Shown here in pieces: positions 22,331 through 50,372 of a DNA stretch of 64,000 nucleotides. Source of the DNA: Bacteroidota bacterium (GTDB lineage: Bacteria > Bacteroidota > Bacteroidia > B-17B0 > Aurantibacillaceae); NCBI GenBank assembly GCA_030692515.1, contig JAUXZS010000015.1, positions 124,001 through 188,000 on the forward strand, in the 5' to 3' direction. The stretch's first letter is position 1; the number at the start of each line of letters is the position of its first letter. The position numbers and the translations under genes are program-made. The notes under the pieces were generated by a model that saw only the letters and a program-made list of their open reading frames with translations, searched no databases and was not told where the DNA came from.

Positions 22331-22792
22331 TTATGCTGACACTAATATTTTTTCGCGCAAATCCCTTAAATTACTGTGATCCTTGTTAATTAAAATTAAT
22401 TGAAGTGCTATTATTTTTTGTTGATCTTCGTTCAATTCATTAGCGTTGTTAAGTATAACTTTATTATAAGTTTGAATTGCCTTCTTCTCTCCATACTCAC
22501 AAGATAAAAGAATTGAATTTTGATTATTAGAAGTAAGCGCTGCTTTTACTTCCATCCACACTCTAAAAAATTTGCCACTTATTTTGGTTTTTTCTTCTGG
22601 TTTACCTCCCATTTGCAAAACTTCGCTAATAAGTTCAACATTGCATTTTTTACTTGTTTGTATAAATTGAAAAAATAGGTTGGTTAGTTCTTTGTTGCTC
22701 GTTTCTTTAGACGCAGTTTCATAGCCTTCAATTCTGTCGTTGTTAATTCTTACAAGAGTGTTTATTACAGCAATTAATTTTTTATTTTTCAT
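22331..22792 (-). CDS. DUF2383 four-helix-bundle stress protein (PA2169-like)
   Basis: This 153-residue helical protein matches the DUF2383 family, with INTLVRINNDRIEGYETASKE near the N-terminus and the KFFRVWMEVKAALT segment in the middle. The family is ferritin-like and often found with stress genes; the molecular role is unknown. I start at the ATG at 22792 (MKNKKLIAVI), which matches the family N-terminus and gives a leader of about 30 bases from the predicted transcription start; an in-frame ATG at 22810 would add six residues. It is the first gene of the operon with dps and mlaEFD, and element 1 sits directly upstream. Confidence 0.82.
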   Translation of the reverse strand: MKNKKLIAVINTLVRINNDRIEGYETASKETSNKELTNLFFQFIQTSKKCNVELISEVLQMGGKPEEKTKISGKFFRVWMEVKAALTSNNQNSILLSCEYGEKKAIQTYNKVILNNANELNEDQQKIIALQLILINKDHSNLRDLREKILVSA

Positions 22793-22828
22793 TTTTTGGC
22801 TATTAATCATTTTTAAAATATACTCCTA

Positions 22829-22897
22829 CAAAATTCAGGCTATTTATTGAATGAAGTTTTACATAATCTTTTTATTTAATTGCAACATTCACACATA
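22829..22897 (-). promoter_or_regulatory. Composite regulatory element 1 (DUF2383-dps-mlaEFD promoter)
   Basis: On the minus strand: cap box TATGTGTGAAT (22887-22897), distal half-site TTGCAAT (22879-22885), proximal half-site ATGTAAA (22858-22864), and -7 box GAATTTTG (22829-22836). The half-sites are 21 bp apart and the proximal one is 21 bases from the -7 box. See the finding on the ten-copy element. Confidence 0.8.
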
Positions 22898-24626: not shown

Positions 24627-24695
24627 CAAAGGTGGGGTAAATAAAAAGTGATTGTGTTACACAACTTTATACAATAGTTGTATTATTCACACATT
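24627..24695 (-). promoter_or_regulatory. Composite regulatory element 2 (first ice-binding protein)
   Basis: Minus strand: cap AATGTGTGAAT (24685-24695), distal half-site ATACAAC (24677-24683), proximal half-site GTGTAAC (24656-24662), -7 box CACCTTTG (24627-24634). Spacings are 21 bp between half-sites and 21 bases to the -7 box. Confidence 0.83.
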
Positions 24696-30735: not shown

Positions 30736-30804
30736 CAAATGTGATAACTAAATCATAGGATTGACTTACACAACTTTTTAATTAAGTTGCATGATTCACA
30801 CATT
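30736..30804 (-). promoter_or_regulatory. Composite regulatory element 3 (ice-binding adhesin-porP-OmpA unit)
   Basis: Minus strand: cap AATGTGTGAAT (30794-30804), distal half-site ATGCAAC (30786-30792), proximal half-site GTGTAAG (30765-30771), -7 box CACATTTG (30736-30743). Half-sites are 21 bp apart, with 21 bases to the -7 box. Confidence 0.83.
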
Positions 30805-37985: not shown

Positions 37986-38053
37986 TAAAGATGCTTAGTG
38001 TTATAGCCTTTTGATTACATAACTTATAAAATAAGTTACATCATTCACACATT
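37986..38053 (-). promoter_or_regulatory. Composite regulatory element 5 (OmpA-PD40 and AI-2E permease)
   Basis: Minus strand: cap AATGTGTGAAT (38043-38053), distal half-site ATGTAAC (38035-38041), proximal half-site ATGTAAT (38014-38020), -7 box CATCTTTA (37986-37993). Half-sites are 21 bp apart, with 20 bases to the -7 box. Here the direct repeat is nearly perfect. Confidence 0.83.
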
Positions 38054-38530: not shown

Positions 38531-38598
38531 CAAAGATCATTGATATCATGAAGGAAAGTATTATGTAATTATTTAAAAGACTTACAACATTCACATAT
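38531..38598 (-). promoter_or_regulatory. Composite regulatory element 6 (csbD copy 1)
   Basis: Minus strand: cap ATATGTGAAT (38589-38598), distal half-site TTGTAAG (38581-38587), proximal half-site ACATAAT (38560-38566), -7 box GATCTTTG (38531-38538). Spacings are 21 bp and 21 bases; the half-sites are weaker than in most copies. Confidence 0.72.
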
Positions 38599-43736: not shown

Positions 43737-43805
43737 CAAAGGTGGTTGAATATTCGCCCGGAAGTGTTACAGAACTTTTCTGATTAGTTACATCATTCAC
43801 ACATT
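43737..43805 (-). promoter_or_regulatory. Composite regulatory element 7 (csbD copy 2 and the 12-gene unit)
   Basis: Minus strand: cap AATGTGTGAAT (43795-43805), distal half-site ATGTAAC (43787-43793), proximal half-site CTGTAAC (43766-43772), -7 box CACCTTTG (43737-43744). Spacings are 21 bp and 21 bases. Confidence 0.85.
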
Positions 43806-44301: not shown

Positions 44302-44736
44302 CTACATTCTATTCATATACCAGTTAAGTTCTTTCTCTATTTTTTTGTAATGAAAAGCAGTAGTAATGATTTTTTGTAAACGAACAAACGCTGTTTCGCT
44401 TTTAACTACATAATCGAATGCTTTGTGATGCATGCAGTTAATCGCCACATCAATCTTATCCTGTGATGAAAGCATCACAACAGGAATGTCAGAATTATAT
44501 TCTTTTATCTTGTCTAGTGTTTCCATTCCATTCATTGCATTTTTATCAATTCCATCTAATTGATAATCTAGAATGATTAAATCAGGGGAATGAGATAAAT
44601 TGCTAATACATTTCTCGCCGGTCGAAAAAGTTTCAATGCTAAAATCGGCATGACTTAAAAATTCAATTTCAAGTGATTTTAAAAACACTGCATCATCGTC
44701 AACCAGAAATAGTTTTATTTTTTTTTCGTTATTCAT
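44302..44736 (-). CDS. Stand-alone response regulator receiver
   Basis: This 144-residue protein is a single CheY-like receiver: LFLVDDDAVFL near the N-terminus (acidic pocket), LIILDYQLDG near residue 55 (phospho-Asp), VVMLSSQD near 91 (conserved Ser) and FDYVVKSE near 113 (conserved Lys). There is no output domain, only a short C-terminal helix (YKKIEKELNWYMNRM). Its ATG overlaps the stop of the hybrid kinase gene (TAATG), so the two are co-translated and it is the likely terminal or shuttle receiver of that phosphorelay. It is the third gene of the AraC-kinase-receiver unit under element 8. Cytosolic. Confidence 0.9.
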   Translation of the reverse strand: MNNEKKIKLFLVDDDAVFLKSLEIEFLSHADFSIETFSTGEKCISNLSHSPDLIILDYQLDGIDKNAMNGMETLDKIKEYNSDIPVVMLSSQDKIDVAINCMHHKAFDYVVKSETAFVRLQKIITTAFHYKKIEKELNWYMNRM

Positions 44737-47570
44737 TATTTGGTATTTTTAATATTGTTAAACTCTTCTTCTAATTCACTACAGGCATGAAAACACACCT
44801 TCTCGAGTTGTAAAACCAGATCGTGTATTTCTTCATTTATTTCTTGTGCGCTGGCATATTCTTGAATTTTTCTTGCCATATTTTCAAAATCAGCGCTAAT
44901 ACCCATGATTGAGAATGATGGAATCATTTTATGTACAGCAGATTGTAGCGAAACCCAATCTTTTTGAGTTAAGCTTTCTTTCATCGCACCAATTAAAGGT
45001 GGCGTTTGTTCTAAGTAAAGTGTAATCATTTCCATCATCAATAAAGGATTTGATTTTGTTCGTTTATTTAAATAATCCAGATCAACATATTTTATTTTTA
45101 TATTTTCGACGGGTTGGTTTTTCATTTGCGAAACGACTTTATTTGATTTATTAACTAATCCTATTATTTTATTATACAATAACTCTTCATTAACTGGTTT
45201 TGCAACGTAATCGTTCATCCCTACAGATCTGCATCTTGCTAAATCAACGGTAGTAACATCGGCAGTTAAAGCTATAATTGGTGTTTTTAAATTCAAAGTT
45301 TTTCGGGCGTATTCTGTTGCTTCAAAGCCATTCATTATGGGCATTTGTAAATCCATTAGAATTATATCGTACGATTTAAGTTTTAATTTTTCGACGGCTA
45401 TTTTTCCATTTGCAGCAATTTCAAATTCAAATCCAAAATCGTCGAGTAAAGTTTTCATTAGCAATTGATTTAGAGCAATGTCTTCAACTACTAATACTTT
45501 TATGTCTTTTATATTCTTATCTATTTCCAAAATTTCTTCACGTGATTCCGCTTCTATAGTTGTTTTTTTAAATTTTAATGCGAAGCTAAAAGTAGAGCCT
45601 TCATTAATTTTACTAGTGACCTTTATAGTTCCACCTTGAGGTTCCACTAAATTTTTAGAAATTGCTAATCCTAATCCTGTACCACCATATAATCTAGAGG
45701 TGCCGCTACTAGCTTGCTGAAAGTCGTCGAAAATACTTATTAATTTATTTTCCGCTATTCCAATTCCTGTATCGGAAACAGAAAATTCAACGATTGCATT
45801 TTCATCATCACTTTCAAGTAATTTAACTTTAACGGTTATTTTTCCGGAGGATGTAAACTTAACAGCATTACTTACCAAGTTTAATATTATTTGGTTTAAT
45901 CTTACAGGGTCTCCGAGAAGGGTTTCTGGTATTGTATTATCGTAGTCTGCTATTAGTTTCAAGTTTTTCTCTTGAATCTTTGTTTCAAACAAATGTAGCA
46001 TTGCCGAAATTGAAGTTGCCATTTTAAATGGAACCTCCTCGAACGACATTTTTCCGGCGTCCACCTTAGCTAAATCCAGAATATCATTTATTAGAACGAT
46101 TAATGCATCGCCACTAATTTTTATAGCACTTAAGTATTCTTTTTGTTTTGCAGTTAAATTTGTTTTTAAGATAACTTTTGTAAATCCTATAATTGCATTC
46201 ATAGGAGTACGAATTTCGTGGCTCATGTTTGATAGAAATTGTTGCTTTGCTTTTACAGCATTCTCAGCGATTTGTGTTGCGGATTCGGCTTTTGCTTTTG
46301 CTAACTCTGCAATCTCAGTTGCCAGTTCGGCAAATATTTTAGCTTCAATTAGTTCTTTTTCATTTCTTTTTTGTTCTGTAATATCTCTTGCTACAATTAC
46401 CGCGCCTACAACATTTCCTTCGTCATCTTTATAAACCGAACCATTAAATAATACTTCGGTTAATTTACTATCTCTAATAGTTAAGGGATAATCCGCCACA
46501 AAACCTTTTTGAAATACTTCTTGATAAACCTCTGATGCTTTTTGTGGATTTGTAAAATAATTTTTAAAGTCGGTGCCTTCTAAAGTTTCACGCGATAAGC
46601 CTGTTATTTTTACTGTAGCCTCGTTCATATCCGTTATTTTGCCTTCAGGACTAATTGCAACTAGCGGGTCGTGACTCGCCTCAATTAAACTTCGAGCATA
46701 TTGCGAAGCCAAGGTCAAAGAATAATTATAAGCTTCTAACTCTTTTTTATCGATTTCTCTCTTTTCTTTTTCATCATTTTGAAAGGCTAATTCTTTATTT
46801 ACATTTAGTAATTCATTAGCTCTCTTTTCTTTTTCATTATTCTGGAACGCTAATTCTTTGTTTGCGATAAACAATTCGGCTGCTCTTTTTTCTTTTTCAT
46901 CATTTTGAAAAGCTAATTCTTTGTTTGCAATTAGTAGTTCATTGGCTCGTTTTTCTTTTTCATTATTCTGGAAAGCTAATTCTTTGTTTGCTATAAATAA
47001 TTCGGCCGCTCGTTTTTCCTTTTCATTATTTTGGAAAGCTAATTCTTTATTTGCAATATTTAACTCAATTGCTCTTTTTTCCTTCTCATTATTTTGAAAA
47101 GCAAGTTCAATGTTAGCAAGATATAATTCGTCGGCCCGTTTTTGTTTTTCACCATTTTGAAAGGCAAGTTCTTTATTAGCCAACCTTAAATCAATAGACC
47201 ATTTTTGTTCGGTTACATCTCGTGCCGCTGCAAAAACACCTAGTATGTTACCTTTTGTATCCTTATATACTGATGCATTGTATAATACATCGGTTAAATT
47301 TCCGTTTTGATGTTTAATTGTTAGTGGGTAATCTATTACAGACCCTTTTTCAAAAGCCTGTTGATACCCTTTTTGTGCTTTTACTGAATCAGTAAAATAA
47401 TTTGAGAATTCGGTTCCAATAAGTTTTTCTCGCGATACTCCTGTAACTTTTATAGAGGCTTCGTTCACGTCTGTTATTTTGCCTTTGGCATTTATGGTAA
47501 CAAGAGGATCTAAGCTCGCTTCTATCAAACTTCTAACGTATTGAGGTTCGTGAGTTTTTTTTGTTTCCAT
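44736..47570 (-). CDS. Hybrid sensor histidine kinase, PAS-coiled coil-PAS-HK-REC-HPt
   Basis: This 944-residue kinase has no transmembrane segment, so it senses a cytosolic signal. In order: PAS domain (about 10-122), seven 21-residue repeats with KELAFQNNEKEKRAxEL (133-279) that form a three-heptad coiled coil per unit, a second PAS (about 298-410), HisKA with the phospho-His in MSHEIRTPMN (about 450), HATPase with NLVSNAVKF, DTGIGI and GGTGLGLAIS, a receiver with VVEDIALNQ and ILMDLQMPIMNG, and an HPt domain with HKMIPSFSIMG (near 875). The two PAS domains are alike. It is the second gene after the AraC regulator, 43 bases away, and its stop overlaps the receiver gene start, giving a full phosphorelay under element 8. 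Confidence 0.92.
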   Translation of the reverse strand: METKKTHEPQYVRSLIEASLDPLVTINAKGKITDVNEASIKVTGVSREKLIGTEFSNYFTDSVKAQKGYQQAFEKGSVIDYPLTIKHQNGNLTDVLYNASVYKDTKGNILGVFAAARDVTEQKWSIDLRLANKELAFQNGEKQKRADELYLANIELAFQNNEKEKRAIELNIANKELAFQNNEKEKRAAELFIANKELAFQNNEKEKRANELLIANKELAFQNDEKEKRAAELFIANKELAFQNNEKEKRANELLNVNKELAFQNDEKEKREIDKKELEAYNYSLTLASQYARSLIEASHDPLVAISPEGKITDMNEATVKITGLSRETLEGTDFKNYFTNPQKASEVYQEVFQKGFVADYPLTIRDSKLTEVLFNGSVYKDDEGNVVGAVIVARDITEQKRNEKELIEAKIFAELATEIAELAKAKAESATQIAENAVKAKQQFLSNMSHEIRTPMNAIIGFTKVILKTNLTAKQKEYLSAIKISGDALIVLINDILDLAKVDAGKMSFEEVPFKMATSISAMLHLFETKIQEKNLKLIADYDNTIPETLLGDPVRLNQIILNLVSNAVKFTSSGKITVKVKLLESDDENAIVEFSVSDTGIGIAENKLISIFDDFQQASSGTSRLYGGTGLGLAISKNLVEPQGGTIKVTSKINEGSTFSFALKFKKTTIEAESREEILEIDKNIKDIKVLVVEDIALNQLLMKTLLDDFGFEFEIAANGKIAVEKLKLKSYDIILMDLQMPIMNGFEATEYARKTLNLKTPIIALTADVTTVDLARCRSVGMNDYVAKPVNEELLYNKIIGLVNKSNKVVSQMKNQPVENIKIKYVDLDYLNKRTKSNPLLMMEMITLYLEQTPPLIGAMKESLTQKDWVSLQSAVHKMIPSFSIMGISADFENMARKIQEYASAQEINEEIHDLVLQLEKVCFHACSELEEEFNNIKNTK
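46734..47174 (-). repeat. Seven 63-bp tandem repeats inside the kinase gene
   Basis: Seven units of exactly 63 bases encode 21 residues each (residues 133-279), around the core KELAFQN. Since 21 residues are three heptads, unit number can change without breaking the coiled-coil register. The units differ by scattered bases, so they are not a very recent expansion. Confidence 0.85.
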
Positions 47571-47613: not shown

Positions 47614-48189
47614 TTAAGTATTTGAATTTCCAATATCTTCAATCGGACTACGTCTTTTATCTTTTAATTGTTTAAAGTGCGAAGGCGAAAGGCCGGTGAC
47701 TTTTTTGAATTGATTAGACAAATGCGCGACGCTGCTGTAATTCATTTTCCAAGCAATTTCGGTTATGTTTAATTCGCCATAAATAATTAATTCTTTTATT
47801 CTTTCAATTTTGTGAGAAATTAAAAATTGTTCAATTGTAGTGCCTTGTACTTCTGAAAATAAGTTTGCTAAATAAGTGTAATCGTGGTTTAATTTTTCGC
47901 TTAAATAATTCGAAAAATTTATTTTAATGATTTCATCAGAATGATGAACCATTTCAATAATTACATTTTTTATTCTCTCAATCAAAACCGCTCTTTTGTC
48001 ATCCATTAATTCTAAACCAGATGAGTGCAGCGCTGATTTTAATTGTTCTCTTTGAGCAATAGAAATAGTTTCCATAACTTCAACCTCTCCCAAATCAACC
48101 ATCATAAAATGTAAGCCAAGCTTTTTTAGCTCCTCCTTTACCACCATTTTGCAGCGGGTACTTACCATATATTTAATGTATAACTTCAA
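47614..48189 (-). CDS. AraC-family transcription regulator, candidate master of the island
   Basis: This 191-residue regulator has an AraC-type double helix-turn-helix at about 85-180 (YTYLANLFSEVQGTTIEQFLISHKIERIKELI, then ITEIAWKMNYSSVAHLSNQFKKVTGLSPSHFKQ). The first 80 residues are not a cupin; the alternating strands and helices (MKLYIKYMVSTRCKMVVKEEL, FMMVDLGEVEVMETISIAQREQLKSAL) suggest a small ferredoxin-like sensor domain with one Cys at residue 13. The frame opens with TTG at 48189, giving the MKLYIKYMVS start that I recall from relatives; an ATG at residue 8 is the alternative. It is the first gene of the unit with kinase and receiver, and element 8 lies upstream, so it probably controls its own synthesis. 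Confidence 0.85.
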   Translation of the reverse strand: MKLYIKYMVSTRCKMVVKEELKKLGLHFMMVDLGEVEVMETISIAQREQLKSALHSSGLELMDDKRAVLIERIKNVIIEMVHHSDEIIKINFSNYLSEKLNHDYTYLANLFSEVQGTTIEQFLISHKIERIKELIIYGELNITEIAWKMNYSSVAHLSNQFKKVTGLSPSHFKQLKDKRRSPIEDIGNSNT

Positions 48190-48213
48190 TTATTGAGTAT
48201 TAATAGATTATTA

Positions 48214-48280
48214 CAAAGTTGCAATGCTTTGTGTTTAGTGTGTTATATAACTATTTTAATTTGTTACATAATTCACACTT
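48214..48280 (-). promoter_or_regulatory. Composite regulatory element 8 (AraC-kinase-receiver unit)
   Basis: Minus strand: cap AAGTGTGAAT (48271-48280), distal half-site ATGTAAC (48263-48269), proximal half-site ATATAAC (48242-48248), -7 box CAACTTTG (48214-48221). Spacings are 21 bp and 20 bases. Its place before the regulator gene implies autoregulation. Confidence 0.83.
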
Positions 48281-49253: not shown

Positions 49254-49748
49254 TTATCTCTTCATCATGTTTAGTGCGAAAGCCACTACTAATCCCATCC
49301 CAATAAAGGTTAATAAGAAAGCGGCCATGTATTTTGAAACACCAAATTCTTTAACAAGAATTCTAAGCGGCTCATTTATTATAACGCGTACTAATTTGCC
49401 AATTTTATTTAAAGAACCATATCCTTTAATCACATAGTCTTTTGCGCCTGCCCTGAAAGTTTCAACAGCAAGAGCTATGTCTTCATTTCCAGACAACATA
49501 ATAACTTCAATCTTGGGGTTTTTTGCTTTAATTAATCTTAAAATTTCCAATCCATTCTTACCTTCCATTTTGTAATCTAAAATTACGATATGAGTTTCAG
49601 TGTTAACTTTATCTAAACAACTTTCTCCATCATTAAATGTTGATATTTGTAGACTAATTCCAAACTTGTTAGTTAAGTAGTTTTTAAGATTTGCCACTAG
49701 TAGTTTGTTATCATCTACTATAAATAAATTTATTCCTTGAGTTTCCAT
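49254..49748 (-). CDS. Receiver-domain protein with a C-terminal membrane anchor
   Basis: This 164-residue protein is a CheY-like receiver with LFIVDDNKLL near the start (acidic residues), VILDYKMEGKNG near 55 (phospho-Asp), VIMLSGNED near 85 and KDYVIKGYG near 107. It continues past the receiver with NEPLRILVKEFGVS and one hydrophobic helix (residues about 139-160, MAAFLLTFIGMGLVVAFAL), closing with MMKR. A receiver tethered to the inner membrane with no output domain is unusual. It has its own element 9 and a terminator. It is paralogous to 49861-50274, which lacks the helix. Confidence 0.85.
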   Translation of the reverse strand: METQGINLFIVDDNKLLVANLKNYLTNKFGISLQISTFNDGESCLDKVNTETHIVILDYKMEGKNGLEILRLIKAKNPKIEVIMLSGNEDIALAVETFRAGAKDYVIKGYGSLNKIGKLVRVIINEPLRILVKEFGVSKYMAAFLLTFIGMGLVVAFALNMMKR

Positions 49749-49776: not shown

Positions 49777-49844
49777 CAAAATTGATTTTTTTAAAACTTT
49801 AAGCATTACACATTTATTGTAAAAGTTTGCATAGTTCACACATT
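49777..49844 (-). promoter_or_regulatory. Composite regulatory element 9 (membrane-tethered receiver)
   Basis: Minus strand: cap AATGTGTGAAC (49834-49844), distal half-site ATGCAAA (49826-49832), proximal half-site GTGTAAT (49805-49811), -7 box CAATTTTG (49777-49784). Spacings are 21 bp and 20 bases. Confidence 0.8.
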
Positions 49845-49860
49845 TAATAATTTTATTCCA

Positions 49861-50274
49861 TTATCTAAAGAAGCCTTTTACTGTAATCCTAAAAGGCTTA
49901 GTAATCATAACATTTACAAGTTTGATTATTTTTTTGTAATAATTATCACCTTTAATAACATAGTCTTTAGCTCCAAACCTAAACGTTTCAATAGCTATGG
50001 CTACATCTTCATTATTCGAAAGCATAATCACTTCTGTTTTTTTATTAATGTCTTTAATTGCCTTTAAAACTTCTAAACCATTTTTGCCATCAAGAAAATA
50101 ATCAAGAATTACGATATGAGTGGTATGATCAATTTTTTTTAAACAACTTTCTCCATCATAAAAGGTTGATATTTCTAAACTAGTTCCAAACCTTGTTTGC
50201 AAATAGTTTTTGAGATCGATAACAAGTAATTTATTATCGTCAACAATAAATAAATTTGTTCCTTTAGTTTCCAT
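49861..50274 (-). CDS. Receiver-domain protein, shorter paralogue
   Basis: This 137-residue receiver is a close paralogue of the membrane-tethered protein at 49254-49748 (LFIVDDNKLLVIDLKNYL, HIVILDYFLDGKNGLEVL, KDYVIKGDNYY shared in part). It holds the acidic pocket, the phospho-Asp near 56, the switch Ser in IMLSNNED and the conserved Lys. It ends at KPFRITVKGFFR, where its paralogue continues into a membrane helix. The downstream bases do not restore the helix in another frame, so this is a truncation or an ancestral short form. It carries its own element 10. It is cytosolic; its phosphodonor is presumably the hybrid kinase. Confidence 0.85.
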   Translation of the reverse strand: METKGTNLFIVDDNKLLVIDLKNYLQTRFGTSLEISTFYDGESCLKKIDHTTHIVILDYFLDGKNGLEVLKAIKDINKKTEVIMLSNNEDVAIAIETFRFGAKDYVIKGDNYYKKIIKLVNVMITKPFRITVKGFFR

Positions 50275-50303: not shown

Positions 50304-50372
50304 TAAAGTTGATAAAACAAAGTGCAGTTGCTATTACACAGTTATATAAATAACTTGCATAGTTCACACGTT
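50304..50372 (-). promoter_or_regulatory. Composite regulatory element 10 (short receiver)
   Basis: Minus strand: cap AACGTGTGAAC (50362-50372), distal half-site ATGCAAG (50354-50360), proximal half-site GTGTAAT (50333-50339), -7 box CAACTTTA (50304-50311). Spacings are 21 bp and 21 bases. Confidence 0.8.

Follow-up and report, generated by a model that had tools for sequence, protein, structure and literature searches.

An AraC-family regulator with an HMA-like N-terminal domain is the candidate autoregulated master of a stress-type regulon in Bacteroidota

The AraC-type regulator encoded in the 64-kb window analysed here (contig JAUXZS010000015.1 of assembly GCA_030692515.1; all coordinates are positions in this stretch of DNA) is predicted, with good confidence, to bind a 35-bp element and to activate the promoters that carry it. 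It would be an AraC-family activator whose sensor, of the HMA or copper-chaperone type, has been reduced from MxCxxC to MxSxxC. As a dimer it would occupy two direct half-sites 21 bp apart, probably overlapping the -33 region, and would activate promoters whose -7 box lies at a fixed distance of 59-60 nt from the start of the element. Since its own operon, comprising the regulator, a hybrid kinase and a receiver, carries such an element, the regulator appears to be autoregulated, and the remainder of its regulon would consist of stress and envelope genes (CsbD-like, OmpA-type, ice-binding-like, Dps-like and receiver genes). The identity of the regulator, its autoregulation and the operon are all strongly indicated, and the signal might arrive, as a guess, either by a phosphorelay through the receiver or by chemistry at Cys13. 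The original prediction had placed this protein, autoregulated, at the head of the regulon, and it is supported by the footprint, the promoter spacing, the co-occurrence and the operon structure, with at least four element-bearing genomes without an orthologue as exceptions. The stress-type regulon is widespread in Bacteroidota, and the protein is a concrete candidate for its master that comes with a well-defined predicted site, promoters of constant geometry and a signalling operon that is itself conserved.

The regulator gene (47614..48189, minus strand) encodes 191 amino acids from a TTG start, which is very likely real because conservation extends to the first coding positions (KLYIKYM), with an in-frame stop just 5' of them. 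Its C-terminus had been read as an AraC double helix-turn-helix, and the Pfam profile HTH_18 confirms this, matching residues 96-174 at E 2.6e-16 over its entire length (1-79/80) with 60.1 bits, above the curated cut-off of 33.6, which assigns the protein to the AraC/XylS family. This is the sole domain matched by Pfam, and Pfam, model and structure match together delimit it to residues 92-179 (47653..47916, minus strand). In the AlphaFold model, with a mean pLDDT of 90, a helix connects an N-terminal domain of beta-alpha-beta-beta-alpha-beta topology to the double helix-turn-helix, and in structure comparison the C-terminal domain resembles AraC-type DNA-binding domains with Z up to 14.7. The translated open reading frame holds a single Cys in all 191 residues, at position 13, as had been claimed. 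The TTG start codon (48187-48189) is shared by 82 of the araC homologues that were examined, with ATG ranking second (23).

The N-terminal domain, delimited by profiles and model to residues 1-64 (47998..48189, minus strand), has a ferredoxin-like fold and is homologous to HMA domains. Residues 1-62 are modelled at a pLDDT of about 94, with strands at 2-6, 28-32, 35-38 and 60-62 and helices at 11-23 and 44-56, so the ferredoxin-like alternation of strands and helices suspected from the sequence is indeed found in the model. A family profile built from the N-terminal domains of 13 remoter relatives, most of them with CxxC, matched the HMA domains of copper ATPases among PDB chains at E 1.9e-13, and a profile rich in the window regulator's own clade matched HMA domains among PDB chains at E 2.8e-8, aligning their second metal Cys with the Cys13 column. 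The Pfam family PF00403 gave no hit with the window domain and weakly matched 9 of 51 family members (best E 0.0011); the HMA domain of this protein is therefore missed by Pfam alone and found by profile search. Structural comparison of the N-terminus by Foldseek and VIA-align, a check the original prediction had proposed for residues 1-80, placed the domain near the HMA proteins TTHA1718, Atx1 and GolB (Z about 7), with HMA proteins among the top matches and ACT domains scoring alike. An ACT identity was rejected: its structure scores resemble those of HMA, but the sequence profiles indicate HMA only.

Profiles, model and structure matches thus bear out an HMA-type fold that has lost one of its two metal Cys. 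Cys13 (codon 48151..48153, minus strand) is, in the alignment of homologues, the second Cys of MxCxxC, the first being replaced by Ser10, so that the close members read MxSxxC and depart from the MxCxxC motif of HMA domains. In the set of distinct homologues whose upstream sequence is long enough, Ser10 and Cys13 occur together in 87/87 above 79% identity and in 30/30 at 66-79%; Cys13, whose conservation had been left to be checked, is therefore kept in 117/117 above 66% identity, and the refuting outcome named in advance, which required Cys13 not to be conserved, did not occur. Below 55% identity, Cys occupies position 10 in 12 of 18 homologues and position 13 in 17 of 18. This pattern indicates that the loss of one metal Cys from an HMA domain had been guessed correctly. 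The residues Y7, K14, H27, M39 and E40 of the same domain are also specific to the clade.

The relatives that keep the CxxC motif (C10), exemplified by the loci L244, L246, L248 and L250, are likely a copper regulator of Bacteroidota. In 8 of 12 cases, some with short flanks, a gene for a P-type copper ATPase, a multicopper oxidase or an RND pump lies beside them, and a hybrid kinase lies downstream in 0 of 13; the searchable literature yielded no description of such a regulator. A quickly built tree gathers the SxxC members, save a few long rows, into a single group with full support, and a formal test did not reject a tree that keeps the C10 rows together (p 0.70), long branches limiting the test. 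The SxxC clade most likely arose from these copper-locus regulators, trading metal sensing for a role linked to the kinase phosphorelay, and the two-domain protein, with CxxC in copper loci and with SxxC and a kinase in stress loci, offers a likely path for the reuse of a metal sensor. A broader scenario, which we put forward only tentatively, is that a copper-sensing regulator became an autoregulated master of general-stress type across many Bacteroidota orders by losing a metal Cys, capturing a kinase operon and receiving a phosphorelay signal through its former metal domain. In the four loci named above the CxxC relative precedes a copper ATPase gene, and in several of them a small HMA-like protein and a multicopper oxidase come next.

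The second gene of the regulator's operon (44736..47570, minus strand) encodes a hybrid histidine kinase with the arrangement PAS - repeats - PAS - HisKA - HATPase - REC - Hpt-like, and the third (44302..44736, minus strand; Pfam) a single-domain receiver. The partnership with the kinase that had been proposed is strengthened: araC and the hybrid kinase stand together in 80/80 loci of the largest collection (genome_contigs), the receiver being present in 62 of these 80, some of which are cut short, and the kinase lies downstream in 100 of 107 close SxxC (S10) members with 1 kb of downstream sequence. The receivers of the window hold Response_reg domains only in Pfam, which confirms that they have no DNA-binding domain. 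Between the two PAS domains of the kinase, tandem 63-nt units (46694-47209) encode 21-residue coiled-coil-like repeats, and the length of the kinase differs among relatives.

Two readings of the N-terminal domain bear on the signal and not on the binder, and both are compatible with the main explanation. The HMA-like domain may sense nothing itself and serve as a module through which the receiver of the adjacent phosphorelay docks or dimerises, a reading to which we give a real, if less than even, chance: it is consistent with the conserved regulator-kinase-receiver unit and with the clade-wide loss of Cys10 alongside the extra clade-specific residues, but an interaction between regulator and receiver is conjecture, and docking alone would leave an invariant Cys13 unneeded. 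That Cys13 is itself a working sensor, holding a soft metal such as Cu(I) between the two Cys13 of a dimer or forming a disulfide or mixed thiol that signals to the DNA-binding domain, seems slightly more doubtful. Its conservation throughout the close homologues, its place as the second Cys of the metal motif and the CopA, multicopper oxidase and RND genes beside the C10 relatives speak for it; against it, the other metal Cys is replaced by Ser in all close members, the regulon genes seen in the window belong to the stress and envelope kinds and include none for copper, and Cys13, at the start of helix 1, could be structural.

Element 8 (48243..48277, minus strand; TGTGAATTATGTAACAAATTAAAATAGTTATATAA) consists of two half-sites in direct repeat at a distance of 21 bp. 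It is located 88 nt 5' of the TTG, directly upstream of araC as originally described. It scores 35 on a matrix built without it, against 13.5 for the best non-element score in the window, where the pattern occurs 11 times against 0.63 expected and nine element copies are found, all on the minus strand. The fixed 21-bp geometry of the half-sites also holds, giving the strongest autocorrelation among shifts 5 to 39 and matching the direct repeats of about 21 bp to which AraC/XylS dimers bind. Patterns with a spacer of 14 or 15 bases matched nothing real; 16 bases are needed. Most orthologues, drawn from several orders, have the element in a matching position. Of the 82 orthologue genes whose upstream sequence is long enough, 54 carry it, and in 48 of these it stands 83-95 nt ahead of the start, at a cut-off reached by 0.09% of shuffled sequences. 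About a third of the closest orthologues, several Flavobacterium among them, have no clear upstream element. A -7-type promoter box, CTTTG (48214..48218, minus strand), lies 59 nt from the start of element 8, and in 192 of the 205 distinct copies a box of the form NTTTR, which was no part of the element search pattern, stands 59 or 60 nt from where the element starts. Given this fixed distance, activation from a promoter-proximal position is the most likely role of the element.

The candidate regulon within the window, located by the pattern and with all its elements on the minus strand, includes two receiver proteins recognised by Pfam, both encoded on that strand and each with its own element (49254..49748, element at 49806..49840; 49861..50274, element at 50334..50368). 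Further elements lie upstream of a CsbD-like gene (43767..43801), a second CsbD-like gene (38561..38595), an OmpA-type gene (38015..38049), an ice-binding-like gene of the DUF3494 type (30766..30800), a second ice-binding-like gene (24657..24691), and the gene at 22331-22810 with the Dps-like gene that follows it (22859..22893). In the window and elsewhere, the genes behind elements comprise araC, ice-binding-like, CsbD-like, receiver, OmpA-type and other genes, the regulon beyond the window coming from pattern searches; some of these family names are our presumption from recognising the sequence.

The system combines features of several known ones. The double helix-turn-helix C-terminal domain is shared with the AraC/XylS activators (AraC, ToxT and Rns, and the DNA-binding domain of MarA, SoxS and Rob), and AraC at araI1-I2 binds direct-repeat half-sites 21 bp apart, like those of the window element. 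The window regulator differs in that its N-terminus is an HMA domain and not a cupin, with no sugar pocket. With HMA domains and copper chaperones (PF00403; CopZ, Atx1, the ATP7B repeats) it shares the fold, the Met and the second Cys of MxCxxC, but its clade has Ser for the first Cys and a fused AraC domain. The copper-locus regulators have the same two-domain architecture at 47-55% identity and, unlike the window clade, keep CxxC, with neither a downstream hybrid kinase nor an element. The general stress regulons of SigB in Bacillus and RpoS in Enterobacteria have similar targets (CsbD-like, YtxH-like, Dps-like). Those regulons use an alternative sigma factor, whereas the window system would use an AraC-type activator and a hybrid kinase. 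No description of the SxxC regulator or of its gene set was found in the searchable literature, which is mostly that outside subscription journals.

Co-occurrence connects the regulator to the element across genomes. Among 395 genomes of the class, 31 have an orthologue (E up to 1e-82) and 25 of these carry the strict element, as do 54 of the 364 without one (counted by hand; Fisher p 3e-14, a statistic that ignores relatedness), with 148 sites in the genomes with an orthologue and about 135 in the others. Among 60 relatives the element is found in 13/16 with an orthologue and 3/44 without, relatedness again being ignored, and the association between element and regulator depends in part on phylogeny. 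Element-bearing araC genes are confined to one 76-row part of the tree, and no araC gene with an element occurs in the 19-row paralogue part. Four genomes at least, G303, G201, G127 and G190 (e.g. L224, L226, L228, L230), carry the element although neither an araC orthologue nor a kinase of the araC-operon type can be recognised in them; the promoter spacing is unchanged in those of their copies that were read, which come from G303, G127 and G190. The G127 assembly is 100% complete, in 40 contigs. In a further genome, G252, the kinase genes run off contig ends, so that its araC may lie in the gap. That some other regulator, unlinked to araC, binds the element and has araC as merely one target is improbable: the four genomes above and the orthologues with no upstream element favour it, but element and orthologue co-occur, the element keeps to a single araC clade, in which its position is fixed, a 21-bp direct repeat suits an AraC-type dimer, the operon partners have no DNA-binding domain, and the araC gene is likely missing from the G252 assembly. 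Other AraC-type genes of G303, G201, G127 and G190 were considered as alternative regulators, and none of those examined has an upstream element. A second araC copy, 64-71% identical and without a clear element, lies just upstream of the main one in L085, L091, L093, L094, L116, L122, L129, L135 and L147.
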